Source of the DNA: Elusimicrobiota bacterium
GTDB lineage: Bacteria; Elusimicrobiota; Elusimicrobia; UBA1565; UBA9628
NCBI GenBank assembly: GCA_003151975.1
Contig: PLZD01000008.1
Span: 1 to 64,000, forward strand
Direction of reading: 5' to 3'
Length of the DNA stretch: 64,000 nucleotides
Shown in pieces: positions 1 to 17,205 of this stretch; the stretch's first letter is position 1, and each line of letters opens with the position of its first letter. The position numbers were made by a program, and so were the translations under genes. The notes beneath the pieces were generated by a model. That model worked only from the letters and a program-made list of their open reading frames with translations. It did no database searches and was not told the origin of the DNA.

Positions 1-580
1 CCGAGATGTTCGGCGTGAAGTTGTATACCGCGGCTTTTCGATGTTCGGGAAAGTTGGGATTGTTCATGCTGAAGATGGGATCGTTGGGAGCGCCCACACC
101 GAGGTCCTTCCAGCCGCGCTCGGGATGCTTGGGGTCGTAATCCTTGGGGTCCACGGTGAAATAATTTCCCGTATGGTTGACGACGATGTCCTGGATCACC
201 TTGATGTCGAGCTTGTGCGCTTCGGCCACCAGCGCCTTGTAATCCTCCAGCGTCCCGAAGTGCGGATCGATCTTCGTGAAATCATGCGCCCAGTAGCCGT
301 GGTAGCCGCGCGTGCCGATGTAGGGGTTGATCCACTGGTTGTGCACCGGCGGCGTCAGCCAGATCGCCGAGAAGCCCAGGCGCTTGATGTGCGGCAAGCG
401 GCTGATGATCCCCTTCAGGTCGCCGCCCTGGAAGGAATCATCGTTGGCCGGATCGTACTCGCCTTGGCCGAAATCGTCGTTGGTTTTGTCGGCGTTGCAG
501 AAACGATCGATCAGAATGAAGTAGATGGCGCGGTCGCGCCAGGCGGACAAGCTAGCGCTTGACGAGGACTCTGACGCCAT
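1..580 (-). CDS. GH13 alpha-amylase-family enzyme, 3' end outside window
   Basis: This is the N-terminal part (about 193 residues) of a second GH13 glycoside hydrolase; the gene runs off the left edge. The reading frame shows the start of the GH13 barrel (RAIYFILIDRF), a sugar-binding GGDLKGI segment, the strand motif FSAIWLTPP and conserved region I as IQDIVVNHTG. An ATG at 580 fits; it lies 29 nt inside the 3' end of the upstream amylase gene, and a TTG at 550 is an alternative. No signal peptide is visible. The substrate is probably an alpha-1,4-glucan, as inferred from family and neighbours. The catalytic Asp and Glu would lie outside the window, so activity cannot be judged. Confidence 0.85.
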   Translation of the reverse strand, partial: MASESSSSASLSAWRDRAIYFILIDRFCNADKTNDDFGQGEYDPANDDSFQGGDLKGIISRLPHIKRLGFSAIWLTPPVHNQWINPYIGTRGYHGYWAHDFTKIDPHFGTLEDYKALVAEAHKLDIKVIQDIVVNHTGNYFTVDPKDYDPKHPERGWKDLGVGAPNDPIFSMNNPNFPEHRKAAVYNFTPNIS

Positions 581-2504
581 GAGGCGGGACCGTGACCGTG
601 ACCTTCGAGCCGCCTTCCCTGGGAGCATGAGTTGTGACAGTGTAGCCGGGATCGAGCTCGTCCGCAAGCGCGGTGCCGGCCGTGGTGATCCCGCCGTCGA
701 CCCACATCTCGGCCTCTCTCGGCTCGGAGGCCGTATTCAGGACGACGAGGACTTCCTCGCCCTGATAGATTCGGCTAAAAGCGCTGATCCCCGCGCCGTT
801 GATGTCGTCGGAATAGCGGAAATACTGCTCGCCGCGGCGCAGCGGCGCGTTGGCCTTGCGCACGGCGGCGATTTTCGCGAGCCACTGGAAAGTTTCGGAG
901 GCCGTGTCGAACTTGTCGCCCTCCGAGCTCTGCGACTTGAACAAGCCGCCCTTGAACATGTCCTCGCGGTTGCGCGGGTCGGCGGGCAGCATCGGCCCTT
1001 CTGGATCGAGGCGGTCGATCGCCTGGCGGAAGGCCTGCTCGGTACCGTTGTAAACCATCGGAATGCCGATGGTCGTGAACATGTACGCGATGGCCAGCTT
1101 CAAGATGGAGACCGGCTCGCCGGCTCGCAGGAAACGATACGTGTCCTGGTTGTCGATGAAGCGCAGCAAGTAGCCGGCCTTGGGGCCGAGCGCCTCGATG
1201 GACTTGCGGGTGCTCTCCTCGAGCTGGGATGTGGGCGCTTTGCCGTGCAGGGCGTAATTTTCTCGACGGTATGCAGGATAGTTGTAGGCGGCGTCGCTTC
1301 CCACCGTCGTCATGTAAGGCGCGATTTCGGCGTCGACGCCCGAGGAGTTCTCGGGGATCACGAGAAAGTTCTTTTTGCCGAGCAGACCGGCCTGAGCGCG
1401 AATCTCCGTCACGAGGCGCGGAAAAAGGCCCGGCGCGAAGTGCTTCACGGCGTCCAGGCGCACGCCGTCGATGTCGGTCTCCTTCATCCACCATTTCACG
1501 ATCTGGACGAGCCTGTCCTGCGTCGCGGGGTTGTCGCCGGCGAAGTGGCGGTAGTTCGGCGGGAAGTCGCCCTCGGTGGCCTGCTTGTGATCGTTCCAAT
1601 TGTCGATCACGCCGCGGCGGGTGAAGTTCTCATCGGTCGCGAGCTCCTTCGGATAGAACGGAGCGGTGCGCTCGCCGATCTCCTTGGGTCCGCCGTCGGG
1701 CTTAAATTGGGAGCCGTCTTTATATTCAAAGATCGGTCCGGCGTGGTTGGTGACCCAATCCATGATCACGCGGATGCCGCGCTTGTGCGCCTCGGCGATC
1801 AGCTCCTTGTAGTCCGCCATCGTCCCGAGGTGCGGGTCGATTTGCAGCAGATGGATGGGCGCGTAGCCGTGGTAGGAATCGGGAAGATTCGTGACGACGG
1901 GAGAGAGCAGGATCGTGCTGACGCCGGAAGCCGCGAGGTAATCGAGCTTGGAGGTCACGCCCTTGATGTTGCCGCCGTGGCGCGAGACGCCGTCCTTCTG
2001 ATCTCCGTGCGTCTTGTAGTCGCCTTCGCGCGCGAAGCGGTCGAGAAAGACGAAGTAAACCGACTCGTCGCGCCAATCCTCCGGAGACGCGAAATACGCC
2101 CGCTTCGGATCGATACCGTGATCGAGCTCGGCCAAAGTTTCGGGCGCGAACGCGTGAAGTTCGTCTACCGAACCGACGGCGCCGGCAAAAGTGAGCTGGG
2201 GAGCGGAGAGCTCGGCCTGCGAAGGAGCGACAATCGAGGCGGCGGCTTTCGGCGCGGCGATCAGGCCCGAAGCGTTTTCGGCGGCCGGAGCCTCGGCTTG
2301 GGGAATCGCGACGACGGCCTGGCCGGCATTGATCTGCGCGAAGGGCAGCTGCGGCAGAACGCCGGGGATGTCAAGCGGCTTTGCGGCTCCCGTGACCTCG
2401 ATCGGCCTGACAGAAATCTGGACCGGCTTGACGACGTCGACGGCCAGCGCGGGGCTGGCCGCGATCAGCAGCGCGAGAAGGGAGGCGGAGAGCTTTGAGA
2501 TCAC
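552..2504 (-). CDS. Exported GH13 alpha-amylase-family enzyme
   Basis: A 650-residue GH13 hydrolase, expected to cut alpha-glucans outside the cytoplasm. The GTG start at 2504 shares GTGA with the stop of the upstream gene and opens directly with a signal peptide (residues 1 to about 22, ISKLSASLLALLIAASPALA). A Pro/Ala-rich linker of about 100 residues follows, then the (beta/alpha)8 barrel: GHAP-type region I is read as MDWVTNHAG, the nucleophile is D351 in GVRLDAVKHF, the acid/base is E385 in VIPENSSG, and the third acid is D454 in FIDNQD. A C-terminal beta domain ends the protein. All three catalytic acids are present. Translation is probably coupled to the membrane protein upstream and the second amylase downstream. 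Confidence 0.93.
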   Translation of the reverse strand: MISKLSASLLALLIAASPALAVDVVKPVQISVRPIEVTGAAKPLDIPGVLPQLPFAQINAGQAVVAIPQAEAPAAENASGLIAAPKAAASIVAPSQAELSAPQLTFAGAVGSVDELHAFAPETLAELDHGIDPKRAYFASPEDWRDESVYFVFLDRFAREGDYKTHGDQKDGVSRHGGNIKGVTSKLDYLAASGVSTILLSPVVTNLPDSYHGYAPIHLLQIDPHLGTMADYKELIAEAHKRGIRVIMDWVTNHAGPIFEYKDGSQFKPDGGPKEIGERTAPFYPKELATDENFTRRGVIDNWNDHKQATEGDFPPNYRHFAGDNPATQDRLVQIVKWWMKETDIDGVRLDAVKHFAPGLFPRLVTEIRAQAGLLGKKNFLVIPENSSGVDAEIAPYMTTVGSDAAYNYPAYRRENYALHGKAPTSQLEESTRKSIEALGPKAGYLLRFIDNQDTYRFLRAGEPVSILKLAIAYMFTTIGIPMVYNGTEQAFRQAIDRLDPEGPMLPADPRNREDMFKGGLFKSQSSEGDKFDTASETFQWLAKIAAVRKANAPLRRGEQYFRYSDDINGAGISAFSRIYQGEEVLVVLNTASEPREAEMWVDGGITTAGTALADELDPGYTVTTHAPREGGSKVTVTVPPHGVRVLVKR

Positions 2505-3838
2505 AGTTTCCCCCCGCCCATGTCGGCGCTCTTGTCCTTCAGGAAGAACGAGGCGCCGATGTAGGCCGCCCACGAGAGGAACATGATGATCGTCGTGAGC
2601 ACGGTGAAGAGATGCTGGTAGCCGAAAGTGGCGAGCAGGCCGAGGTGCATCGTGAGCGACGCCAGCTGGTAGAGATTGCTGCTCGCCTTCTCGCTGATGA
2701 CGCCCGCGGCCTTCAGCTTGTTGATGACCGGGACGATCAGCCCGCCGGAGATCATGCCCTGCAGATTATTGAGCAGCAGCAGGCCGATGCCGTGCCAGCT
2801 GTAGACCAGCGGGTTCTCGCCGAGCGGCCCCAACACGAGCCGGTTCATGAACTCCGAGGCCACGAGCTGAACGTAAACGAAAAGCAGGTCGCCGAGTTTC
2901 GCGTTGCCGACGCGCAACATCGGGGTCATGCGGCCGAGGAACTTCATGTAGGTCTGGCCGAACACGGTGAAGACGGAATCCTGGATCTGGTACCAGCCGG
3001 TCGAGAGGATCGCGCGCGCCACGCCGAGCTGGCCGGCGTGCACGCCCTTGAGCGCGAAGGCGGCCCGCACGATGAGGTTGAGGCCCCAGGTCTTGGTGAC
3101 GAGATAGACGAAGTCCTGCTTGTTGGGCTTGGTCTTGGACTCGTTGAAGATCGACTTGATGTCTTTGAGATACTGGACGTTGAACTCGACGAATTTGCGG
3201 CGGGCGGTCTGCTTCGGCTCGGAGCGCGCCAGCGCGGGCTCTGCCTTCATTCCGGAGTTGTCCACGACCGAGACAGGAGAGAGGTCCGCGCCCTGCGACT
3301 TCGCGCGGCGGTCGAAGAAGCGCGTGAAAAGGGAGAAGCGCGAGCCGGAATTGGCTTCGGGCTTGCCGAGTTCGCTCTTCAACACTCCGGTCTGCGTCTC
3401 AAATTTCTGCTCGGCCTTGGGCGCCTGAGCTTCGGGAGCCGTCGCCGCGGGAGAAACCGCCTCGGGCGTCGTCACGAGGCCTTCAGCCTTCGGAGTCTCG
3501 ACCAAGGCGCCGTTGACGCCGATCTGGGCCGTCGGAATTTGCGCCTGGGCTTTGACGGTTTGAAGGTTCCCGCCGATCTCACCGACGACCGGGACTTCGA
3601 CGTTGACGCCTAGATTGGCGGCGCCGTTGACGGGCAAATTTGTGAGCGCCGGAGCCGTCTTCATGCCGGCCGCACCCCCGATGTTCAGCGGCATGGAGAT
3701 CTTCGGGGTCTCGACGACGTCGCCGGCCACCGCTAGAAACGAAAGGCCCTGCTGAAGGATCAGCAGGGCCGCGAGCAGCACGGAGCCGAGGGCTTTTTGC
3801 CGCCGGGGCTCATCGAGTCGTTGGTGCCTGATCACCAT
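2501..3838 (-). CDS. Exported/membrane protein with Pro/Ala-rich linker, unknown function
   Basis: A 445-residue protein that I do not recognise. It has an N-terminal hydrophobic export signal (about residues 18-38), a linker of about 140 residues rich in Pro, Ala, Val and Thr, and a C-terminal half of about 250 residues with several hydrophobic helices (for example GLLLLNNLQGMISGGLIVPV and LTTIIMFLSWAAYIGASFFL). That half looks like an integral membrane domain. The linker style matches those of the neighbouring amylase and the 2857-residue protein. AGGAG lies 3 nt before the ATG and 6 nt before the next codon GTG (3835), so the true start may be GTG 3835. Its stop overlaps the amylase start, suggesting they work together. 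Confidence 0.75.
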   Translation of the reverse strand: MVIRHQRLDEPRRQKALGSVLLAALLILQQGLSFLAVAGDVVETPKISMPLNIGGAAGMKTAPALTNLPVNGAANLGVNVEVPVVGEIGGNLQTVKAQAQIPTAQIGVNGALVETPKAEGLVTTPEAVSPAATAPEAQAPKAEQKFETQTGVLKSELGKPEANSGSRFSLFTRFFDRRAKSQGADLSPVSVVDNSGMKAEPALARSEPKQTARRKFVEFNVQYLKDIKSIFNESKTKPNKQDFVYLVTKTWGLNLIVRAAFALKGVHAGQLGVARAILSTGWYQIQDSVFTVFGQTYMKFLGRMTPMLRVGNAKLGDLLFVYVQLVASEFMNRLVLGPLGENPLVYSWHGIGLLLLNNLQGMISGGLIVPVINKLKAAGVISEKASSNLYQLASLTMHLGLLATFGYQHLFTVLTTIIMFLSWAAYIGASFFLKDKSADMGGGKL

Positions 3839-4012: not shown

Positions 4013-4357
4013 CTACTGGGTCCGTCTTTCGAAGGTATCGATATTCAGTTCGAAGGTCGCGCCCTGGAATTGGCCGGCCGGCGCTCTTTCGAGCAGCATT
4101 TGAAGCGCTTGAGTTATTCGTGCGATGACCGGCGGATGGATGCGGATGCAGATTATTCCGGGGTGGTTCTTTGGCGGATAACGCGTCAAGTCGAGAAAGT
4201 CTTTGTCGTGCGTGATCAGCACTCGTTTCTCTTCGAGGGCCAGCTTAATGATGTCTCCGTTTCTAGTACCCAGCGGTGCGCGGACGATATCATGGCCCAA
4301 CTTCTGGGCGAAAGCGAGCACGGCGATATGCACGTTTTCATCCAGAAGAAAACGCAT
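4013..4357 (-). CDS. DUF5615 PIN-like toxin
   Basis: A 114-residue protein of the DUF5615 PIN-like family, the presumed RNase toxin of a type II toxin-antitoxin pair. It opens with the family hallmark MRFLLDENVH, where Asp and Glu are the first acidic metal-binding residues, and continues with GHDI and the strand LITHDKDFLDL carrying further Asp residues. The ATG follows the antitoxin stop directly (TAAATG), so translation is coupled. Family role is established only in outline; RNase activity is inferred from the PIN-like fold. Confidence 0.88.
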   Translation of the reverse strand: MRFLLDENVHIAVLAFAQKLGHDIVRAPLGTRNGDIIKLALEEKRVLITHDKDFLDLTRYPPKNHPGIICIRIHPPVIARITQALQMLLERAPAGQFQGATFELNIDTFERRTQ

Positions 4358-4585
4358 TTAATGGGTAGGAGCGAATTTCTCCGAGTCGACAACATCAGCC
4401 GCGTAATGAAGCGCGGCCTTTATGTGCTGGGAAGTAAGCTGCGGGTAACCTTCAAGTATTTCCTTATCGTCCTCTCCCGCCTCAAGAAGTTCCAAGATGA
4501 TCGACACCATGACCCGCGTGCCCTTGAAACAGGGCTTCCCATGGCAAATCTCTGGATCGGCTGAGATGTAGTCTCGAACGTTCAT
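4358..4585 (-). CDS. DUF433 antitoxin
   Basis: A 75-residue DUF433 protein, the usual partner of DUF5615 toxins. It shows the family core PEICHGKPCFKGTRVMV, followed by a helical C-terminal half that would form the winged-helix-like DNA-binding fold. It is the first gene of a two-gene operon with the toxin. A promoter 6 nt upstream of the ATG implies a leaderless transcript. The protein probably neutralises the toxin and represses its own promoter; this is inference from the family. Confidence 0.88.
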   Translation of the reverse strand: MNVRDYISADPEICHGKPCFKGTRVMVSIILELLEAGEDDKEILEGYPQLTSQHIKAALHYAADVVDSEKFAPTH

Positions 4586-4591
4586 AGTTCA

Positions 4592-4811: not shown

Positions 4812-6260
4812 CTAGTCGTCGGCCGGCTGAGAATCCTTTCCGTCCCAGGCGTCCGTCCCCGGATCCACCTGAGACCCTTCCCCGCCCAACGCCGTGGGCG
4901 GTGCGCGCGCTGGCCGCGTCGTTGGAAGATCCGCCTCGAGCCCGACATGCCTCAGCAGCCGTTCCAGTTCGGCGTCGTCATTGATCGACGCGATCGCCTT
5001 CATCGTTCCGCCGCACCTCGTGCATTTGATAACATCAACCTCGAAGATGCGTCCCAGGCATGATGCCCATCCTCGAACCGCTGAAGCCACTACCTTGCGC
5101 GCAGCTCGCGCCGTCCGGGCCGCCGTCCCGAGCGCGCCGACCAGCGCTAGCCCCTCACGGATTAACTGAAAATTAGCCTTCTCTTGCGCGGCGCGGGTCA
5201 CCGCCTCGCGCAGCGGCGAGCGCGGCCCCAGCGCGCCGTGGTAGCGCACCAAGTGCGCCCGCCTCGGCGGAATCAGCCGGGCGAATTTCGCCATGAAATC
5301 CGCAGGCTTGAACTCGACCACGTCGAGAATTCCATCGTGGCCTTTCTTCGGTAAGTACCGCACAATTCCCTCGCTGGCTTTGTAAGTCAGCCTCTTGACC
5401 GAGATCGCCGGTCGCAAGATGTAGCCTACGAGCCGCGCAAGTCCTTCCCGGTCCTCGGCCTCGATGCGCACCCTGCCGTCCAGGGAGAAGCCGCCCAAGG
5501 GCCTGGCCAGCAATTCCTCGAAAACTTCTTCGGGAATAGCCTTCAGCAATCTCATCCGCAAGAGAATTTTGCGCCGGATGATGCGGCTCAGCTCGGCCAA
5601 GTCCTGCTCGGACAGCGGTTCCGCGGGATGGAACTTCAAGACACCGTCTTGCAGCGTGAAGCTCCCATCCGAGACGACGGCATGCACGTGAACGTGCAGA
5701 TTCACGCGCGAACCAAATCTCTGGATCGCGTGCATTTGCGCCGGAACCGCGCCCTTCGGCGCGTTGCGGGCGTAGTGGCGTGTGAGCGCCCTCGCGAGAA
5801 TGCTCGAAAGCTCGCCAGGCAGACGCTTGTCGCGATGCACGAAGTAGCGCAGACGCTTGGGGATGACTAGCACCCATTGCCGATATGGGACCTCAGGCAG
5901 CAGTTCATCGGTGGCCTTGATGATCCCAAGCGCCGAGCGCTTGCCGTCGCAGGAAGGGCAGGCCAGACGCCTCTTGCAGGAATATGGGACCAGGAGGCTG
6001 TCGCCGCATTTGTCGCAGCGGTGGCGCACGACGCCGAAGCGGTGCACCCCGCAACCCAGGAAGGCGCGCAGTGAATCCTCGGCGCAAGGCTCTGGCCGTT
6101 GTACTGATCCACGCGTCCATCGGCTGTCCCCGAAGGGGACCGGGCTGCCGCGCAGTGCCGCGACCCAGCTTTCGATCTCATCGCTGATGAGCCGGTGGAG
6201 CGGGCTTGCGCGAGCGCGCCGCGGCTGGTAGGCCCGGACCTGACAGGCGTCTGATTCCAC
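4812..6260 (-). CDS. IS91-family transposase
   Basis: A 482-residue single-strand (HUH) transposase. The N-terminal zinc ribbon has Cys pairs at 82/85, 95 and 101/104 (RHRCDKC, SCKRRLACPSC). The metal-binding HUH motif lies at about 189-193 (LHVHVHAVV). The catalytic tyrosine is most likely in the LVGYILRP segment near residue 280, a position typical of IS91 relatives. A second Cys pair (IKCTRCGG) lies near residue 420. The length is slightly above that of typical IS91 proteins and the gene appears intact. The start is GTG at 6260. The C-terminal 60 residues look unstructured. Confidence 0.9.
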   Translation of the reverse strand: MESDACQVRAYQPRRARASPLHRLISDEIESWVAALRGSPVPFGDSRWTRGSVQRPEPCAEDSLRAFLGCGVHRFGVVRHRCDKCGDSLLVPYSCKRRLACPSCDGKRSALGIIKATDELLPEVPYRQWVLVIPKRLRYFVHRDKRLPGELSSILARALTRHYARNAPKGAVPAQMHAIQRFGSRVNLHVHVHAVVSDGSFTLQDGVLKFHPAEPLSEQDLAELSRIIRRKILLRMRLLKAIPEEVFEELLARPLGGFSLDGRVRIEAEDREGLARLVGYILRPAISVKRLTYKASEGIVRYLPKKGHDGILDVVEFKPADFMAKFARLIPPRRAHLVRYHGALGPRSPLREAVTRAAQEKANFQLIREGLALVGALGTAARTARAARKVVASAVRGWASCLGRIFEVDVIKCTRCGGTMKAIASINDDAELERLLRHVGLEADLPTTRPARAPPTALGGEGSQVDPGTDAWDGKDSQPADD

Positions 6261-6966: not shown

Positions 6967-7311
6967 ATGATCACCACGATAGCCTTGACGATAATGATGC
7001 CCACCGCCGCCATTCCGACGAGGCCCGTCCGCTTGCCCTCGCCCGCGATGCCCATCGAGATCAGCCAGCCCATGCGCCTGCCCGGACCCGTGATGCCCGG
7101 CGGCGAACTTCAGCTTCCCAGACCCGTCGATAAGCTCGGGCCCGCCGCGCGCATCAAGCTCGACATCCCGGAGTCGGCCGGCAAGAAAGCGCCTTCGGCC
7201 ATCGACACCCTGCGCAAGCTCGTCAAGGACGACCGCCCCGATTTCGCCAAGAACGCCTTCGACAGCATCAGTCTGCCGGGCGCCGTCGCGCCGGTTTACG
7301 CCGGCCGTTAA
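6967..7311 (+). CDS. Small Pro-rich protein, probably exported
   Basis: A 114-residue protein with a short hydrophobic start (MITTIALTIMMPTAAI) and a Pro-rich body (RLPSPAMPIEISQP, LPGPVMPGG). AAAGGAG lies 8 nt before the ATG. Its composition resembles the Pro-rich linkers of the large exported proteins nearby, such as the N-terminal section of the convergent 2857-residue protein. The two genes share TTAA at their stops (7308-7311). The C-terminal 50 residues are charged and may form helices. Function unknown; the absence of Lys/Arg before the hydrophobic stretch makes export uncertain. Confidence 0.65.
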   Translation: MITTIALTIMMPTAAIPTRPVRLPSPAMPIEISQPMRLPGPVMPGGELQLPRPVDKLGPAARIKLDIPESAGKKAPSAIDTLRKLVKDDRPDFAKNAFDSISLPGAVAPVYAGR

Positions 7312-10300
7312 CGCTTAAAGAGGATTCGCAGGACTTCGGCGACGCTCCACGCCTGCGAGCGCGTGCCGCCGGGATTTTGGTCGGACGCGCGGCCGGCGAA
7401 AAGTCCACCCAAGCCCTTCGGGTCGTCGAGCGAAGCCCGGCTCGCCCGCGCATCCGGCGCGCCGCCGTCGAAGACTTCGGGCAAGGAGCCTTGCTCGTGC
7501 GTGACGAGGAACTCCGCCAGCGGCTCGAGCAAGCCCAGCGCCTCGCCGCGGATGCGGTCGTCGGACCAGCCCATCGTGCGCCGAACGCTGGCCAGCGCGT
7601 CGAGGAACGGCCCGATGAGCCACGGCCAAACCGTGCCCTGGTGGTAGGCTTGATCCTTTTCCAGCGGCGGCTTTGAGGTGTCGTACTTCGCTTGATACTG
7701 GCTGTCGCGCGGCGAGAGCGTGCGCAGGCCGTAGGGCGTCAGCAAATCGCGCGCGGCCGCGAGCACGACCGCCTTCTGGCGCTCCGGCGAGAGCAAATCG
7801 CCGCCGTGGCTGACCGCGAAGATCATGTTGGGGCGGATCGCGCCGCCGTGCGCGTCACCGTCGACGACGTCGAGCAGCGCGCCGCCCTTGCCGCCCCACG
7901 CTTTTCGGTTGTCGTCGGTCTCGAACCAGAATTTTTGATTGAAAGAAATCTTGACCTTGTCCGCCAGAGCGTCGAGGTCATTTCGCGCAGCGCCGTGGCT
8001 GAGACTCGCCACGTAGCGCAATGCCACGTACCACAGCGCGTTGATCTCGACGGCCTTGCCGTCGCGCGGCGTGACGGGCCGGTCGCGCCCATCCGGATCC
8101 GCGTCCATCCAGGTCGCCTGCGCAGGACTCACGATGAGACCGTCCTGGTCCATCGCGATCTTGTTGAAGCGGCCGTAGCGCTCGTAGCCCGTTCCGCTTT
8201 GATAGCGCGCCACGATGCGAGAAAGCGTCGGCGCGAGTTCTTGAGCGAGCGCCGCGTCGCCCGAGGCCTCGCCGTATTTTTGGACCGCCGCGATAAACCA
8301 AAGCGGGCCGTCGACCGTGTTGTACTCGGCCCGGCCGTCGTCGCCTATTTTATTAGGGATCAAGCCGTCCTTCTCGAATTGCGCGAAGCGCCGCAGGACT
8401 TGTTTCGCCTCGCCGAATCGTCCGGTCGAGAGCAGCAGCCCCGGTAAAGAGACGAAAGTGTCGCGGCCCCACTCCTCGAGGAACCAATCTTGGCTCGCGG
8501 CCCAGATCTGCGTGGAGCCGCCCGCGTGCTTGATGAAGCCGTCGGCCGCCTCGGTCAGCACTTTCTTGACGGCGTTCTCATCGCTCCACACGCCGCCGTC
8601 CTTGATGGCCTTCAAGGCTTCCAACTGCGCCCGCGAGTCGCTGCGCGAGCGCGCGGCGTAATTCGCGTCGCTCGGCAAGGGGACGCGGTAGCGCCAGTAC
8701 GAGCGCCCGTCCTTGACGACCTTGATCGGCTCGGGGTCTCCCCACTCATCGCCTAAAGTATACGACACGAAGCGGCCGTTCTTTCCCGAGAAAGAATCTT
8801 TCGAAGCGCCGAAGAGCCGCGGCAGAAAGCCGAGCTGGCGGGGATCGTCGGCCGAGCTGACCTTCTTCCAGTCGCCGTACAAAGTCAGAAAGCCGTGCTT
8901 GACGGCGTCGTCGGCCTTGCCCTCGAAGGCCTCGGCGACCGGCAGAGCCCCGCGCGCGGCGAAGACGGAGCCCAGCGCCTTCACATAATCCTCGCCCGGC
9001 TCGTCGCCGCTGGCCAGCTGTCCGTTGCCGAAGCGGTAGGCGAAGTGCAGCGCGTCGACGCGGCCGCCATCGAAGCCGAAATCAAGCCAATGATTGAACG
9101 GCTCCAGCTGGGCGCGGTAGCCGTCTTCCTTGGTCTTGCTCCAATTCCAAAGCGCGAGGTCGAGCCAATCCTCGTTGACCCATTTGTTCTTGATTCCCGG
9201 GTTGCGCGTCTTGATGTCGGTGAAGAGCTCGGGGCGCTTCCACGCGTCGACGGAGTTCTTACCGCGGAACATCGGAATGTCGAAGAGGACCTTGCCGCCC
9301 GCGGCGTGAATCTCGTCAAGCGCGGCCTTCATTTGCCGGTGCGCGACCCACTGGGCGAATGAGTGAAGTTCCACGGAGAGACCAAAGCGCGGATCATTCT
9401 TGGCTTGAGACACGTCGGCCTCGGTCCAATCGAGCGCGGGCTTTCCGATGATCTTCGAGAGCGCCATGAACTCCGCGTATTCCCCAAGCCATGCGGCGTT
9501 CGCGGTCGTAAACGCGCGGAACGAACGAGCCCGCGCTGTGTCCTTGTCGAGCTCCTCGCTCTGAAATTTTTGATGCGCCGACTGAGCTGCGGAATTCTCT
9601 CTGGCGCGGACCGCCTCGTAGTCGACCGCGGTCGATCCGCCCGTCGTGGTTCCCCAGTCGATGTTGTCCTCGTTCAAGGCGTAAAGGCTCACGGGCGCGT
9701 AGGGGCTTTCGTCGAGGACCGCGAAGTGCGGCAGCAGGAGGATCGTGTCAGCCCCTTCTTTCGCAAGATTGTTTTTAAAGTAAGGCGCGAGGTCGGTGTA
9801 CTTGCCGATGCCGGGATCGTTTTGCGCTCGGCGCAGGGAGAAGATGGGCACGGTCACGGCGGCGTGGGTTTGGCTTGCGTCTTTCCACCACGGCGGCCCG
9901 CGGACCGGGGCCGCCGATTTCGCGACGGTCGTCAATCTCAACGCGGCTTGCTCAGCCAAATCTTCGGCCGCCGCCTGCAGGCCGCGGCGCGGCACGACGG
10001 CCTTGATGGCGCGCGCATACGGGTCCTTCATGCGGTCCCAGAAAGTCAGGCCGTTGAATGACGACGAGTTCGCGCCGTAGCGGCTGCGGGCGGCCGCGAT
10101 GAGTGCTCCCGCGTCGCGGCTGACCTTCGCCGGGTCCTTGAGGCCGTCCTCGAGCAGGACCAGCGCCTTCGCCTCGTCGCCGAACAGGCCGCCGCCCACC
10201 TCGCTGACGGCGTGGGCCGGCATCGCCGAGAGCGTCTGCTTGATGAGGTCGATGAGGTAGAAATAGAAGCCGTCGGGCAAGGCCCCGTTCTTCGCCTTGA

Positions 10301-13300
10301 ACTCGGAAGCCAGCCGTTCAGCCAGAGAGGCCAGCTTGACGGCGCTCTTGCGCGCGGCGGCACCCGTGCCGTAGGCCCGCTGAGCGCCGCCAAGGCTCAG
10401 CGCCGCGTCGGCGGCGGCCTTGGCTAGGCCCGCGATGTCGGCGTCGGCCACAAAATCCGTCCAGGTCACGCCGGGCTCGTCGGCCGTGCCGCGCGCCGAG
10501 TAGAACTGCAGGCCGGTCTTCTCGCCCGCGGCCGCGACCGCGACGGCCAGACCCGAATCGGCGGGCGAGGCGATGGAGTCCGCCGACGGCCCGCCGTTGC
10601 CCGCGGAGACGACGACCTGGACGTTGCCCAGCACGAGCCGGTTGACGAGATGCCCGAGCGGTCCTTTGAGCCGTCGATTGTCTTTGATCTGCGCGGGACC
10701 CGCGAGCTCGAGCAGAACGAGCGACGGAGACTTGAGCGGGTCGGCGCGCGCGACCACGGCCTCGAGCGCGGCCATGACCTTGGCCTCCGAGACGCCCGCG
10801 CTCGCCGTGATGGCGACCAGCGGAGCGTCTCCGTCGGGCAGGCTGGGAGCGGAGACGGCGAGGTCGAGAGTCAGGCCGGGCGCCTTCTCCGACGAGGCGG
10901 AGGTCGTGGCGACATAGGGCCGCGAGAGGCGCGCGGTAAAGCCCAGCCGCCGCATCTCGAGCGAGAACGCGAAGAGCTTGTGCTCGGGAACCTTGATCCA
11001 CAGCGCTTGGGAGACCGGCAGGCTCGCCGCCAGCGTCGCGCCGTAGCGCGCGAGCAGCGCCCCGTCGAGGCCCGCCGCCGCGTTGGGAGCCTGCACGATG
11101 ACGTCGAGCGGGCCCAGCGCGGGATCGACGCCCGGCACGCCGAGGCCGCCCGAGTCCGGAAGCGGAGTGGGAGCGTCCAGCGGAATTCCAAACGCCTTCG
11201 CCAGCACGGAGACGAGCTCGCCCAACGCCCCGGGGCGCTGAACGGAAGCCCGATTCTTGAGCACGAACTCCGTGACGACCGTCTTGACCGGCTCCTGGCG
11301 CATGAGCGCCAACAGCTTGCGGTCCTGCATGGCCGCGGGGAAGAAGCGCGCAATCGTGCGCGTCAGGGCGAGATTCTGCTCTCCGGCGGCGCCGACCAAA
11401 TCGATGATCGCGTCGTCGCTGATCGCGTCGGGCTGCGACTGCGCGACGTTATAAAGGGAAGCGGCGGCCAGATGCCGGATATTGCCTCGCTCGCCGAGGT
11501 CCTTGACCTTGGCCGCCAGCGTCCGGGCCTCGGTTTTCGTCGCCTTGCCGCCCAGCTGGCCGAGCAGCCACACGGCGGTGAAGCGGATGCGTTTGCCCGC
11601 GCCGGGCGCCTTCGCGTCGACGAGCTTGGCGGCGTCCGCGATGCGCCCCATCTCCGAGCCGTCGCCATGGGCGGCCAGCGCGTAAGCGGCGTAGAGCGCG
11701 ACGTCCCAGCGGGGATCCGCCGCGGCCTTTTTGATGTCCGCGTCGACCGCGTGAGAGGGGTTCTTCGCCAAGGAAAGCCAAGCCATTTGGCGCACGCGCG
11801 CGTCGTCGTCCTTGGTCGCGGTCTCGAGCAAGGCCGAAGCGGCTTTCGACGACCGCGCGTTGAGCAGGACGAGCGCGGCTTGGCGGCGCACGAGCCAGAC
11901 CGGGTCCTTGAGCGCGTCGAGCAAGGCGGGCAAGGCCGCCTCGCGCGCCTCGGCGAATTTCTTGACGATCTCCGCGTAGACCTTGTCGCCGATCGCGGGG
12001 CCTTCCTCGGCCGGCGCGTCCTCGCCCTCGACGGGAGGCTGTTCCTCAAAGCGCGCGCGCGCCTCGGTCTTAGCGACCTCGGCGGTGCGCCGGATGCCGT
12101 CGCCGAGCTCGATGACTTTCTTGTAGCGCTCGATCCACGCCCAGGAGTCCGCGCCCGCCGCGGGAGCCAAGGCGCCCAAGCCCGGGACCTTGGACAATCT
12201 GAAACGCAGCGAACCGGCGACGCCGGAGAGGGCCAGTTTGACCGCGGCCCCCGCGTCGACGAAACCCGCGCCCTGAAACCAAACCGGGACCTCCATGTCC
12301 TTGGCCGTGACCATCAGGATCGACTTGACCGACAAAGGCAGGTTCTCGTAGACGAAGTCGCGCACGGAGCGCGCGGCTTTGAGCGCGAGCTTGACGAGCG
12401 CCGCGATGCCCGCGATCATCGGCGAGGCCATCGAAGTGCCTGACATGCCCGTGTGCTTCTTGTCCGCCAGGTCGGAGGGTCCCGCCGGCATGTCCTTGGA
12501 TTTCGCGGAGAAAATCCCGCGCTTATAGACGTTGGGGTCGGCGCCGTCGGTCACGACGTCGCCGCCGAGAGCCGTGATGTCGGGCTTGATCTCGATCCAC
12601 TCGACGGCGGAATCCGCGGGCCGGTCGGGGCCGACCGAGCTGAAGAAGCTGATTTCGGGGACGCCGTCGTCCTCGCTCTTGGAGGCGGCCGCCACCGAGA
12701 TGACATTCTCGCCGGCCGAGGGCTGGCTGATCGTCTCGTCGAAGGGCCCAGAGTTGCCGGCGCTCGCCACGACGATGACGTAATCGCCCTTGCCGTTCTT
12801 TTGGAGGGTCAGACCGGAGAAGAACTTCGCGAGATTGTCCGACGAGTTGCCTTTGCTGCCGAGGCTCAAATTGATGACGTCGACGCCGCGCTGCAAGGCG
12901 ATGGTGCCGGCGCCCATGATGTCGCCGTCGGAGGCGCCGGGCGTGTCGCGGCCGAAGACCTTCGCTCCGATGCTGTTGACCGCCGGCGCCATGCCGAGAA
13001 ACGAGGGATTCGAAGAGGCGACGATGCCGCCGACGTGCGTGCGGTGGCCGATCCAGTCCTCGTGGCCCTCGTGCATCATGTCGACGCCGTCGTCGCGGTC
13101 GGCGTAATCTTCGTGCGTGGTCTTGCCGCCCGTGTCAATCTCCATGACGGTCGCGCCCGCGCCTTGGCCGGACAGCTTCCAGGCTTCAGGCAAGTTCTGC
13201 AGCTTGCCGGAGTCCATGAGCAAGGTCTCAAAATCCGCGCGCGAGCCGCCGATCATCACGGATGAGCCCGCGACGAACTTGCGGATCGCGGCGGCGTTGC

Positions 13301-15881
13301 GGCGCGGTATGGTGACATAGATTTCCTGACGGGACACGTCATTGCCGAAGACGTCGCGGATCTCGACGCCGAGTTCGTCGAGCATCGTGAGATAGTTCCG
13401 CACGCCCGAACGCTCGAGCGCGGTCCGCAGCGAAGACAAGCCGTCGCTCATGGCCTTCAAATCTCCGGCCGAGAGCGACGCTGCCGCCTCGTCGAAGAGC
13501 TTGAGGCTGTCGGCGGACTTGACGGCCTCGACCTCCGCGCGAGCGGCGGAGATCAAGGGAGCGATGGATTGGGCTGAGGCAAGATCGGAAGCCAAGCCGG
13601 CCGAGAAGCCATCGAGCTTGTCCATGTCCGCCTTGAGCGCGGCCGCGTCGCCCGCCTCGGAGGACTTGAGATACGACTTCGAGAGCTCGTCGAACTCCTT
13701 GAGGCCGGGAGCGCCGCGCCGCGCCTCGGCGACGATGCCGGCCTTGAGCCAGATCTCGGCGAAAGCCTTCTTGTCGGCGATCGCGCCGGACTTGGCCGCG
13801 GCGGCGACGGCGGCCCGGGCATCGGAAAGCGCCTGAAGATCGAATAGCCGCTGAGACTCGCGCGCGGCGGCGTCCTGAAGCTTCGCGAACGCGCCGAGCT
13901 GGTTGGAGAAGCCCGCTTTGGCCAGCGCCAGGCGGGCCTTGGCCTGCGCGTCCGCAGTGGCGGAGGCGTCCGGCACGGAGGCGTCCAGCGCGCCGCCGTT
14001 CATGGGCTTGAGCCACAAGCCGACGCGCGCCTCGACCTTGCGCAGGATCATGATGTGCCCGCCGTCCTCGAGATCGACGCGCACCGTGCGGAACTCGCCG
14101 CCATCGGCCGCTTCCCAGTAGCGCAGCAGCCGCTCCCAGACCGCCACGCCCGAGTCCGTCGCGGAGAATGAGAGAAAGGCGACGCCCTTGTCCTGCATGC
14201 CGTCGTAGAGCTTCTCGATGAAGTCCGCGGGGCCCACGCCCTTGAGCCGCGTGGCCGCGATCTGGTGCCAGAAATCCTTGACCATTTGTTCTAGCTTGCG
14301 GACGTCCTTCTTGCTGCCGCCGGAAAGGGTCTTGGCGATGGCGGCGAGCTCGCGGAAGCGGCGCCCGTCGCGGCTGCCCGGCTTGAAGGCCGCCTCGCCC
14401 GAGCTCATGCGCCTTGTCGCGAGAAGGTAAAGGCCGTCGAGCTGCTTGAGCGCGAGGTCGAGCTTCTTGGCGGGCTCGGTGCCGGCCGCCGGGAGCAGGG
14501 AGTCGGGCTTCTCCATAACCACGGCGCGGTAGCGCCGCGCGTTCTTGCTATCGCCCAGGATGTCCTGCGGCGCGGCCGAGGTTATGTTTTCGACCTTGGC
14601 GCGGCCGGAGGAAAGGCTGCGATAAAGCTCGGGGTTTTTGAGCTCGGCGTTCTCGGCGTTGACGACGAGCATGTCGTAGGGCTGGTCCAGATTGAGCGAG
14701 ACTTGAGCCTCGCGCGCGGCCCGCTCCAGGCTGGGGACCTTGGAGTTCTTGAGAGCCTTGGTTCCGTTGAACTCGATGGCCCGCGCGGCGACCTCGGAGA
14801 CGCTCCGCCGCCAAATCCCTCCGAAAAATCCATCCGCCGGGGGCCCGCGCGCCTTGAGCTCGCGGTAATGCTTGAACTCGTGGGCCAGCACGCTCCGGAA
14901 AAGCATCGGCGTCGCGGCGAGCTCCGGGCGCAGCGCGATGGCGCCGGCCGAGTGATAGCCCAGGCCCATGTTCCAAGCGAGCTTCTGCGGCCGGTAGATG
15001 CGGATCAGGCGCGCGATGCCGCCGTCGAGCCGGCCAGCCAACACCTCGCCTTCGACAAAGCGCCGGAAATCGTCGTCGCTGACCTTGCGGCCGCGCCAAG
15101 CGGCATAGCCGTACTGCATGGACTCCCAGGCCGCGCGCGGAAGAAGGACCGCGGCGGGAATCAAGGCGACCGCGGCCGCGGCGAGCAGAACGACGTGCGG
15201 GACGGCCAAAGCGATGGTCGCGCCCGTGCCCATCGCCGTCACGGGCACGAAGAGCGCCGCAGCAGCCTTAAGCCCGGCCGCCGCCGCGCCGAAAGCGCCG
15301 CCGACAAAAGCGGGGAACCAGGGAGAGCGGGCATCGACCTCGGGGCGCGCGACGCGTTCGGCTTTTTTCTTGGCGCCGCGGATTGAAGCCGGGGTCAGAG
15401 TCTGCGGGACCGCGGCCGTCTCGGTTCGAGGCTCGACGGCCTCGACGCCGGACGAGGCGGCGAGCCTCTCGCCGAAGACGTGTTCCGAAAAATCCTGTTG
15501 TCCCGCGCCCTGAGCCGATTCCGCCGGAGCATCGGAAGAGAGATTGCCGACCATTGACGGGGCTTGGAGGCGGGCCATCTCGCCGGAAAAACCAGCCTCC
15601 GCCTTCGGCGCGGTCTCGAGAATCGGCTCGAGCGCAGGGCCAAGCACAGGGATCAGAGGAGCCGTGGGAATTGCCAACTCGGACAGCGGCCGCGGCAGCT
15701 CGAGCGTCGACGGCAGCTGGTTGAGCGAGGTGATCTTTTGGATCTCAGGCAGGGCGACGACAGGGACGGTGGGTGCGGCCTTGACCGAGAACTCGGCGGC
15801 GGCGGCGTTGAGAGCGTCGGGGCCAAACGAAAGAGCGGCGATGAGCGCAGATAGAATGACGGCGGCGAGTCGTTTGGCCAT
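7308..15881 (-). CDS. Giant exported multidomain protein: HExxH, subtilisin, HEAT, GH77-like, GH133-like
   Basis: A 2857-residue exported protein. In order (residues from ATG 15881): signal peptide 1 to about 30; Pro/Ala linker to about 185; two hydrophobic segments at 190-260; HEFKH (334-338), a zinc-peptidase motif; a long helical section; an I9-like segment; and an S8 peptidase with D916, H949, N1043 and S1150 (GTSMASP). HEAT repeats follow at about 1310-1510. A second subtilisin-like segment (about 1660-1780) keeps VVSAGNGGP but shows no Ser motif. A GH77-like domain (about 2000-2420) has D2276 in GGRVDALHF and E2317 in PVAEAFEG. A GH133-like debranching domain ends the protein, with WMDADPDG (D2593) and GKAVEINALWY (E2612). 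Together these could trim and debranch alpha-glucan. A TTG at 15908 is an alternative start. Confidence 0.9.
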   Translation of the reverse strand: MAKRLAAVILSALIAALSFGPDALNAAAAEFSVKAAPTVPVVALPEIQKITSLNQLPSTLELPRPLSELAIPTAPLIPVLGPALEPILETAPKAEAGFSGEMARLQAPSMVGNLSSDAPAESAQGAGQQDFSEHVFGERLAASSGVEAVEPRTETAAVPQTLTPASIRGAKKKAERVARPEVDARSPWFPAFVGGAFGAAAAGLKAAAALFVPVTAMGTGATIALAVPHVVLLAAAAVALIPAAVLLPRAAWESMQYGYAAWRGRKVSDDDFRRFVEGEVLAGRLDGGIARLIRIYRPQKLAWNMGLGYHSAGAIALRPELAATPMLFRSVLAHEFKHYRELKARGPPADGFFGGIWRRSVSEVAARAIEFNGTKALKNSKVPSLERAAREAQVSLNLDQPYDMLVVNAENAELKNPELYRSLSSGRAKVENITSAAPQDILGDSKNARRYRAVVMEKPDSLLPAAGTEPAKKLDLALKQLDGLYLLATRRMSSGEAAFKPGSRDGRRFRELAAIAKTLSGGSKKDVRKLEQMVKDFWHQIAATRLKGVGPADFIEKLYDGMQDKGVAFLSFSATDSGVAVWERLLRYWEAADGGEFRTVRVDLEDGGHIMILRKVEARVGLWLKPMNGGALDASVPDASATADAQAKARLALAKAGFSNQLGAFAKLQDAAARESQRLFDLQALSDARAAVAAAAKSGAIADKKAFAEIWLKAGIVAEARRGAPGLKEFDELSKSYLKSSEAGDAAALKADMDKLDGFSAGLASDLASAQSIAPLISAARAEVEAVKSADSLKLFDEAAASLSAGDLKAMSDGLSSLRTALERSGVRNYLTMLDELGVEIRDVFGNDVSRQEIYVTIPRRNAAAIRKFVAGSSVMIGGSRADFETLLMDSGKLQNLPEAWKLSGQGAGATVMEIDTGGKTTHEDYADRDDGVDMMHEGHEDWIGHRTHVGGIVASSNPSFLGMAPAVNSIGAKVFGRDTPGASDGDIMGAGTIALQRGVDVINLSLGSKGNSSDNLAKFFSGLTLQKNGKGDYVIVVASAGNSGPFDETISQPSAGENVISVAAASKSEDDGVPEISFFSSVGPDRPADSAVEWIEIKPDITALGGDVVTDGADPNVYKRGIFSAKSKDMPAGPSDLADKKHTGMSGTSMASPMIAGIAALVKLALKAARSVRDFVYENLPLSVKSILMVTAKDMEVPVWFQGAGFVDAGAAVKLALSGVAGSLRFRLSKVPGLGALAPAAGADSWAWIERYKKVIELGDGIRRTAEVAKTEARARFEEQPPVEGEDAPAEEGPAIGDKVYAEIVKKFAEAREAALPALLDALKDPVWLVRRQAALVLLNARSSKAASALLETATKDDDARVRQMAWLSLAKNPSHAVDADIKKAAADPRWDVALYAAYALAAHGDGSEMGRIADAAKLVDAKAPGAGKRIRFTAVWLLGQLGGKATKTEARTLAAKVKDLGERGNIRHLAAASLYNVAQSQPDAISDDAIIDLVGAAGEQNLALTRTIARFFPAAMQDRKLLALMRQEPVKTVVTEFVLKNRASVQRPGALGELVSVLAKAFGIPLDAPTPLPDSGGLGVPGVDPALGPLDVIVQAPNAAAGLDGALLARYGATLAASLPVSQALWIKVPEHKLFAFSLEMRRLGFTARLSRPYVATTSASSEKAPGLTLDLAVSAPSLPDGDAPLVAITASAGVSEAKVMAALEAVVARADPLKSPSLVLLELAGPAQIKDNRRLKGPLGHLVNRLVLGNVQVVVSAGNGGPSADSIASPADSGLAVAVAAAGEKTGLQFYSARGTADEPGVTWTDFVADADIAGLAKAAADAALSLGGAQRAYGTGAAARKSAVKLASLAERLASEFKAKNGALPDGFYFYLIDLIKQTLSAMPAHAVSEVGGGLFGDEAKALVLLEDGLKDPAKVSRDAGALIAAARSRYGANSSSFNGLTFWDRMKDPYARAIKAVVPRRGLQAAAEDLAEQAALRLTTVAKSAAPVRGPPWWKDASQTHAAVTVPIFSLRRAQNDPGIGKYTDLAPYFKNNLAKEGADTILLLPHFAVLDESPYAPVSLYALNEDNIDWGTTTGGSTAVDYEAVRARENSAAQSAHQKFQSEELDKDTARARSFRAFTTANAAWLGEYAEFMALSKIIGKPALDWTEADVSQAKNDPRFGLSVELHSFAQWVAHRQMKAALDEIHAAGGKVLFDIPMFRGKNSVDAWKRPELFTDIKTRNPGIKNKWVNEDWLDLALWNWSKTKEDGYRAQLEPFNHWLDFGFDGGRVDALHFAYRFGNGQLASGDEPGEDYVKALGSVFAARGALPVAEAFEGKADDAVKHGFLTLYGDWKKVSSADDPRQLGFLPRLFGASKDSFSGKNGRFVSYTLGDEWGDPEPIKVVKDGRSYWRYRVPLPSDANYAARSRSDSRAQLEALKAIKDGGVWSDENAVKKVLTEAADGFIKHAGGSTQIWAASQDWFLEEWGRDTFVSLPGLLLSTGRFGEAKQVLRRFAQFEKDGLIPNKIGDDGRAEYNTVDGPLWFIAAVQKYGEASGDAALAQELAPTLSRIVARYQSGTGYERYGRFNKIAMDQDGLIVSPAQATWMDADPDGRDRPVTPRDGKAVEINALWYVALRYVASLSHGAARNDLDALADKVKISFNQKFWFETDDNRKAWGGKGGALLDVVDGDAHGGAIRPNMIFAVSHGGDLLSPERQKAVVLAAARDLLTPYGLRTLSPRDSQYQAKYDTSKPPLEKDQAYHQGTVWPWLIGPFLDALASVRRTMGWSDDRIRGEALGLLEPLAEFLVTHEQGSLPEVFDGGAPDARASRASLDDPKGLGGLFAGRASDQNPGGTRSQAWSVAEVLRILFKR

Positions 15882-15936
15882 TCTTGTGTTGCTGCGACAG
15901 TGTAACACGCGCGCCTATTCCTCTATAGTGTCGCAG

Positions 15937-15995: not shown

Positions 15996-17201
15996 TTACT
16001 GAAGGAAAATCAGCTGCGGCGGAGGCGCTTCGTTCTTATCCTGCTTGGCGCCGCCGAAGATCTCTCTATGCTGAGTCGGCGGCACCCAAGGCGGTGGCGC
16101 CGGCGAGTAAGTCGTGGCCTTCTCGGCGCGCGGCGCCTGGGGAGAATAGTCGCCGCTGGTCTCGGTCGTGTCCTGGAACCGCTCGGCCTTCGTCGGCCGC
16201 GCGCGCGCGCTCGAAGCGTAGCCGGCGCCGCTGCCGGAGCCGATGCGGAAGGGCAAGGCGGCTCCGGCTTGCATGATGTAGGTCTTGCCGCTGGCGATGC
16301 CCATGGCCTTGACCTCGGTGTTGAAGAACATGTGGAGCCAGGTGAAATTCGCCTCGGAGCCGAAGATCACGCGCGCCTCGTTCTGTTCGGGGCGCTGGCT
16401 GGCGGACCCATAAATCGGCGCGATGCCGTAGGAGGTGTCGATGGCCTGCAGGCTCGCGCTGACCGAGCCGCTGACGCGGTTGTAGCCGAGACCGAAGAAC
16501 GGCGTCATGTGGTAGAACGTGTCGCTGACCACGGCGTTGATTCCGGCGCTGTTCAGGTTCCATTGCAGCGAGCCGGCGACGGATTCCGTCGCTTGAAAGC
16601 CGTTGGAGTTCAGGTTGAAATTGGTGTTGTAGTGGAAGACGCCGTAAACGTGGTTATAGTTCAGACCGAGGCTCAGCAGAGGCATGTCTCCGCCGAAGAA
16701 ATGCTTGCGCAAGGAGAAGCCAATCGAGTTGGATTGGCCCTTGGCGGGCGTGCCCTGCGAGATCTTATAGCCCGGCGGCGTGGTCATGTCGGCGCCGCGG
16801 ATGGCGAAGTCCATGCGGTAGGGCAGTCCGCCGCGCAAGTGCATGGCGAGGTTAGGGAAGACGATCGCGCTCGGGAAGATGTTCTCCACGCCCAGCTGCT
16901 GGAGCGCGGGAACCCCCAGCGCGGGGAATTGGCTTTTGAGCAGCGGCAGGTTGCCGACGCCCAAGCTCATGTCGGGCTGTATTCTCTTGTCGGTCACCTC
17001 GTGCGGCGGGTCGAACGTCTCGCCCGCGAAAAAGCCCAGGCCCTGCGCCAAGCCGTGGCTGAGCCACTGCATCATGTTTTGGAAGTCGCCCGACATCGTC
17101 GGATTGACTTGCGCGCGGACGGGCGCCGCGAAAAAAGCGAGCGCCGCGGCGAGGCTAAGCCTCTTCGCGGCGCTTCTCGCCTTAGCGGCGACAATTTCCA
17201 T
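15996..17201 (-). CDS. Exported protein, candidate outer-membrane beta-barrel
   Basis: A protein of about 401 residues with a signal peptide ending near PVRAQ (about residue 31). The body from residue 120 on alternates hydrophobic and polar residues and is rich in Gly, Asn, Tyr and Phe (LSLGLNYNHVYGVFHYN, FFGLGYNRVSGSVSASL). This is the pattern of amphipathic strands in an outer-membrane barrel. The C-terminal 80 residues are Pro-rich and likely disordered. I do not recognise a named family. ATG at 17201 is chosen over TTG at 17204. A 63-residue gene precedes it with 4 nt between stop and ATG, so the two form an operon. Confidence 0.75.
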   Translation of the reverse strand: MEIVAAKARSAAKRLSLAAALAFFAAPVRAQVNPTMSGDFQNMMQWLSHGLAQGLGFFAGETFDPPHEVTDKRIQPDMSLGVGNLPLLKSQFPALGVPALQQLGVENIFPSAIVFPNLAMHLRGGLPYRMDFAIRGADMTTPPGYKISQGTPAKGQSNSIGFSLRKHFFGGDMPLLSLGLNYNHVYGVFHYNTNFNLNSNGFQATESVAGSLQWNLNSAGINAVVSDTFYHMTPFFGLGYNRVSGSVSASLQAIDTSYGIAPIYGSASQRPEQNEARVIFGSEANFTWLHMFFNTEVKAMGIASGKTYIMQAGAALPFRIGSGSGAGYASSARARPTKAERFQDTTETSGDYSPQAPRAEKATTYSPAPPPWVPPTQHREIFGGAKQDKNEAPPPQLIFLQ

Positions 17202-17205
17202 CAAT

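Follow-up and report, generated by a model that had tools for sequence, protein, structure and literature searches.

Why would one bacterial gene encode, in a single chain, protease domains together with two enzymes acting on α-glucans, and is such a protein real? The question is raised by the window, i.e., the whole stretch of DNA analyzed here (64,000 nucleotides from an Elusimicrobiota bacterium), where a single uninterrupted minus-strand frame runs from an ATG at 15881 to a stop at 7308 and encodes 2857 amino acids. From the N- to the C-terminus, this giant protein contains a signal peptide, a hydrophobic and HExxH-bearing segment, a subtilase, HEAT repeats, a degenerate second subtilase, a GH77 domain, and a GH133 domain (Table 1). 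In the ORF listing, the frame spans 7308-15908, with a GTG start and 2866 amino acids (P0001); P0001 numbers equal ATG numbers plus 9, and are used throughout unless ATG numbering is stated. With a probability of about 0.7, we read the product as a predicted exported bifunctional α-glucan debranching enzyme built on an order-specific protease platform. Its anatomy and genomic context are well supported, and its biochemistry is predicted.

Table 1. Features of the giant protein and of its neighbors in the window, with the basis for each assignment.
Feature	Positions	Strand	Basis
Whole protein	7308..15881	-	One open frame; same architecture in one frame in host-order genomes and named MAG loci (counts in text)
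Signal peptide, residues 10-38	15795..15881	-	KR n-region, hydrophobic core, AAAA end; hydropathy scan; signal-like starts in relatives
Hydrophobic, possibly membrane-hairpin segment, residues 205-261	15126..15296	-	Hydropathy scan; long helices in model
Zincin-like segment, HEFKH 343-347 and conserved E372	13869..15101	-	HExxH in nearly all relatives; no Pfam match
Helical insert of ~150 residues, window protein only, residues ~678-828	13425..13877	-	Relatives align 677 straight to ~828; low-confidence model helices
First subtilase (S8), D925/H955/N1052/S1159	12267..13157	-	PF00082, E=7.3e-39; triad conservation; fold match
HEAT repeats, residues 1326-~1470	11499..11933	-	PF13646 (HEAT_2), E=1.6e-12, three stretches
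Second, degenerate subtilase-like domain, residues ~1611-1945	10074..11078	-	f2 relatives have an intact second S8; catalytic Asp, His, and Ser missing in the window protein
GH77 4-α-glucanotransferase domain, D2285, E2326, D2387	8589..9851	-	PF02446, E=3.2e-30; alignment of 14; fold match; model
GH133 amylo-α-1,6-glucosidase domain, D2602, E2811	7311..8567	-	PF06202, E=8.4e-96; GDE alignment; fold match
Exported putative outer-membrane β-barrel, just upstream	15999..17204	-	Upstream of core in at least 14 relatives; weak DUF6588 match, E=0.005
Exported GH13 amylase-family enzyme	558..2573	-	PF00128, E=7.6e-41; signal-like start
Second GH13 amylase, 5' part	2..667	-	PF00128, E=4.1e-32; continues on contig C57

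The frame and its recurrence

A sequence-only reading of this DNA had described one frame with this series of domains, and the Pfam matches for S8, HEAT_2, GH77, and GDE_C agree with it; when the profile search it had proposed for the GH77 and GH133 segments was run, both matched Pfam above the cut-off. That reading had also considered a sequencing join between different genes. A join made in sequencing or assembly might be favored by the origin of the window in a single draft assembly and by a contig start only 7 kb from the gene, but the same fusion is present in many independent genomes, among them MAGs from different projects. We therefore rejected the join, whose probability is negligible, and conclude that the giant protein is no artefact. 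The core and GH77 were found in one frame in 10 of the 56 genomes of the host order (G000, G007, G039, G040, G043, G045, G049, and G051, plus G019 and G048, whose frames are cut by the contig end). The fused state occurs in three genera, and it was also found in eight named Elusimicrobia MAG loci from several projects (L050, L054, L055, L057-L060, and L069). The constituent domain families are known; a literature search found no paper on such a protease/GH77-GH133 fusion, which is no proof of absence, and the combination was not found described there.

Glucan enzymes and protease core

The Glyco_hydro_77 profile matched residues 2020-2285 with 105.9 bits against a cut-off of 25, and GDE_C (GH133) matched residues 2468-2821 with 321.5 bits against a cut-off of 21. 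The GH77 match reached only position 279 of the 465 in the profile, and the idea of a truncated domain that came from it was rejected by fold comparison. In the AlphaFold model of residues 1668-2866 (mean pLDDT 83.8, with the GH77 and GH133 domains mostly above 90), the GH77 domain had the complete (β/α)8 amylomaltase fold, and Foldseek aligned full-length amylomaltases (targets of ~500 residues) with it end to end, with TM-scores on the target of 0.61-0.67. The GH133 domain matched yeast and human glycogen debranching enzyme (GDE). The roles of the domains and residues are those of the established chemistry of both families. The three GH77 residues listed in Table 1 were invariant among 14 proteins from two phyla, and their roles as nucleophile Asp (RxD), acid/base Glu, and stabilizer Asp were assigned by motif; in the giant protein, Gly replaces the His that usually precedes the last Asp. 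In GH133, the acid D2602 of the TWMD motif aligned with D1241 of Candida glabrata GDE, and E2811 was invariant within SLPEVFDGG, where it probably pairs with the base Glu of the yeast enzyme. Pfam, folds, and conserved catalytic residues thus agree with the GH77-like and GH133-like domains proposed from the letters. The giant protein carries the only GH133 of the host genome, and a separate, conventional cytosolic MalQ is encoded on another contig beside a GlgB-like gene. The NCBIfam matches to gde_arch, MalQ, and the mycosin type all fell below their cut-offs, indicating that the GH77, GH133, and S8 domains are divergent members of their families.

At the other end, the protein start resembles a signal peptide: MAKRLAAVILSALIAALSFGPDALNAAAA. 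The HExxH noted earlier by eye is HEFKH; among the 23 relatives with the segment, 21 retain an HExxH, and the downstream Glu is also conserved. This HExxH and Glu pair suggests a gluzincin metallopeptidase, of the M48 type or another. The segment had neither a Pfam match nor a PDB sequence match, and no zincin was among the 50 fold matches listed, which were dominated by subtilases. The N-terminal core segment is restricted to the host order, being found in 28 of the 295 genomes of the phylum Elusimicrobiota.

The first subtilase matched Peptidase_S8 over residues 918-1214, and its fold matched pro-Tk-SP and subtilisins with E values down to 1.7e-14; the Asp, His, and Ser triad and the oxyanion Asn of Peptidase S8 are present in the subtilase fold. 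Among the S8 residues picked out by the sequence-only reading, D916, N1043, and S1150 (ATG numbering) stood, and H949 did not; it is the second His of the motif GHRTHVGG, and the catalytic residue is the first, H946 (P0001 H955), which we take to be the counterpart of subtilisin His64 by homology. In subtilases, the residue following the catalytic His is nearly always Gly (HGTH), whereas the window protein has Arg (HRTH); a relative such as L054 has the canonical HGTH. The Arg makes the activity of the domain uncertain, and its placement in the S8 family stands. The catalytic residues of the first S8 were retained in most members and were all present in the fused relatives examined. In the fold search, the pro-subtilisin matches extended beyond the catalytic domain, in agreement with an inferred propeptide immediately ahead of residue 905. 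The zincin and propeptide assignments draw on motif, segment order, and a model of medium confidence (pLDDT 76).

The HEAT repeats and the second, degenerate subtilisin-like segment had likewise been recognized from the letters. The repeats matched HEAT_2, and relatives of family f2 had at the same place as the degenerate segment a complete second S8 with D, H, N, and S all present. In family f1, to which the window protein belongs, this domain is without the Asp/His part and the Ser; in the window protein, a deletion has removed the Asp and His part, and GTGAAAR stands in place of GTSMAAP.

Relatives, neighboring genes, and function

Relatives showed several arrangements of the two halves. 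A GH77-GH133 gene with its own signal peptide follows the core gene in G011, L051, L052, and L065, and lies elsewhere than the core, again with its own signal peptide, in G023, G025, and G031. Only the core was found in G008, G014, and G041, showing that it is of use without the glucan enzymes. In G024/L049, the halves lie in different frames and overlap each other, which may be an error of that assembly. The reading of G011 as one fusion of 3837 amino acids was rejected, since its two genes are separated by stops and by other genes. A 2973-amino-acid frame of G038 was left out of the fused count, as two genes are seen in L065, which is probably the same locus. In G010, G016, G002, G003, and G017, a GH13-like domain takes the place of GH77-GH133 at the C-terminus of the core (established by Pfam scan in G016 and by sequence likeness in G010), and the core C-terminus of G011 resembles, by eye, a degenerate GH13-like domain. 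The occurrence of fused, side-by-side, and distant arrangements points to a real, recurring design.

A tree of the GH77-GH133 part, with Omnitrophota and one Elusimicrobia MAG as the outgroup, showed at least three changes between the fused and unfused states, and two close sister loci differ in state, L030 being fused and L065 having tandem genes, with a separate signal peptide for GH77-GH133. Such repeated switching is expected of halves that function as separate bodies, or for which being in one place is enough. It could also be the trace of neutral fusion, in which neighboring genes were joined through loss of a stop codon and a signal peptide and the linkage has no functional meaning; the genes are indeed adjacent in the tandem relatives, and the fused state toggles. 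However, three genera have retained the fused state, and a different α-glucan domain, GH13-like, occupies the same position in five further genomes. Since two kinds of α-glucan enzyme occur on one protease core, we consider neutral drift improbable.

The changes on the tree and the differing sister loci would also be in line with a self-processing polyprotein, whose subtilase cuts C-terminal to itself and frees GH77-GH133, giving products like those of the two-gene relatives, and so would the finding that no first-S8 catalytic residue is missing from the fused relatives examined. Against it, the window subtilase has the unusual Arg beside its catalytic His, and the S8 Asp is gone (IDTG changed to IGTG or VGTG) from the GH13-tailed relatives G010, G016, and G003, which still have the GH domain in cis. 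Self-release is thus no general requirement, and we hold this explanation to be rather unlikely. By locus, the three relatives with the lost Asp are L039, L040, and L048, and L048 is also without HExxH.

The pair of glucan domains was observed in giant Omnitrophota frames of up to more than 6600 amino acids as well (L076:3-14630, L067:2603-22690, L063, L086, and L089). Several of these GH77-GH133 giants have signal-like starts, and the other domains of the giants are GH116, GH13, GT5, GT35 phosphorylase, and a sigma-70 region 4-like HTH or DSP phosphatase. The shared pair offers a handle on the role of such giant proteins.

Around the giant gene, the barrel-like gene is conserved ahead of the core gene in nearly all genomes, and in relatives it often touches or overlaps the core gene. 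The barrel-like protein and its homologues (e.g., L029:14336-15442) have a Pro-rich tail, mostly with an LIFIQ- or LIFIR-like end. Contig C3 begins (window 1-311) with ~311 bases that it shares with the end of contig C57, and both the locus and the amylase gene at the edge therefore continue on C57. In G025, the genes next to the separate GH77-GH133 gene encode a sugar-binding protein, two permeases, an ATPase of the MalK/UgpC type, and an amylase of family GH13, and the GH13-tailed core is followed by ABC sugar importers in G002 and G003 and by two amylases in G017. In the host genome, no MalK near the maltose type was found; the best match, with 292 bits, lies in a cluster of polyamine-type appearance. 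Other observations concern an IS91-type transposase downstream of the giant gene (4815-6260, minus strand; Y2_Tnp E=7.6e-24, Zn_Tnp_IS91) and a small minus-strand gene pair at ~4013-4590 that, by eye, is like a DUF433 antitoxin and a DUF5615 PIN-like toxin. The exported proteins L033:6274-9477, L035:6441-9575, and L037:3523-6255 have in common a stretch rich in Ala, Pro, and Val that follows the signal peptide and ends in an FFDGG- or FFDAG-like motif. An N-terminal motif common to exported proteins of these genomes had only six matches in 187 genes and was dropped.

The exported GH13 neighbors and the ABC sugar importers of relatives make an exported starch- or glycogen-debranching role well supported as a prediction from sequence and gene context; together with the signal peptide, they also sustain the export and α-glucan role first proposed for the protein. 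A further possibility, somewhat short of an even chance, is an uncut surface or periplasmic platform, in which the protease parts would serve mainly as scaffold (anchor and barrel docking) and the linkage would co-localize the glucan enzymes. The degenerate second S8 throughout family f1, the first-S8 Asp lost in three GH13-bearing relatives, and the conserved barrel-like partner upstream argue for it, but a purely scaffolding role leaves unexplained why most members conserve HExxH and the first-S8 catalytic residues. Only tentatively do we put forward an exported polyprotein whose double-protease platform, anchored in the membrane, both matures and deploys interchangeable α-glucan enzymes (GH77-GH133 or GH13), the link having been switched in evolution between a covalent and a two-gene form.

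For the favored exported debranching enzyme, the signal, hydrophobic hairpin, and HExxH part would form a membrane anchor. The subtilase would be a zymogen cutting between itself and the N-terminal part, and might also mature neighboring exported proteins; the HEAT repeats and pseudo-subtilase would be a spacer or docking scaffold that holds the debranching enzyme with its partners. Outside the cytoplasmic membrane, GH13 amylases would shorten the chains of starch or glycogen, GH77 would move the maltosyl or maltotriosyl stubs at branch points to other chains, GH133 would hydrolyze the remaining single α-1,6-linked glucose, and the products would then be imported.

Comparison with known systems

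Fusion of a bacterial debranching enzyme with GH77 is also found in the bifunctional GlgX/MalQ protein (PRK14510), but its debranching partner is a GH13 enzyme, and the giant protein matched this model with only 21.6 bits. With Tk-SP and pro-Tk-subtilisin, which are propeptide subtilases, the giant protein shares the catalytic fold and a preceding pro-like segment; unlike them, its S8 domain is joined to an HExxH segment, HEAT repeats, a second S8, and glucan enzymes. An order-specific protease core with two alternative glucan tails is a testable case of how uncultured bacteria link protease platforms to the use of polysaccharides.

GH77 amylomaltases or D-enzymes (MalQ; Thermus 1cwy and 5jiw) have the whole catalytic fold and the D/E/D residues at matching motifs in common with the giant protein, whose GH77, however, is only ~18-20% identical to them in the fold alignment and is predicted to be exported. 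The archaeal and bacterial GH133 family (gde_arch, TIGR01561) shares the GH133 domain, with 218 bits against an NCBIfam cut-off of 364, but has its own N-terminal domain where the giant protein has GH77. Known archaeal GH133 enzymes act in glycogen catabolism, and the debranching logic has been reviewed as transferase first and glucosidase second (PMC11046441).

The eukaryotic GDE/AGL (GH13_25 and GH133; Candida glabrata 5d06 and human 8zeq) likewise has, in one chain, a 4-α-glucanotransferase followed by a GH133 glucosidase, the latter being homologous and sharing the TWMD acid. Its transferase is GH13_25, whereas that of the giant protein is GH77, with predicted export and a protease platform in addition, and the Pfam scan of the giant protein gave no hDGE_amylase (GH13_25) match. 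By analogy, the giant protein would work like a GDE and is not a GDE itself. It would represent a second solution to the one-chain transferase and glucosidase debrancher of eukaryotes, with GH77 for GH13 and a predicted extracytoplasmic location.
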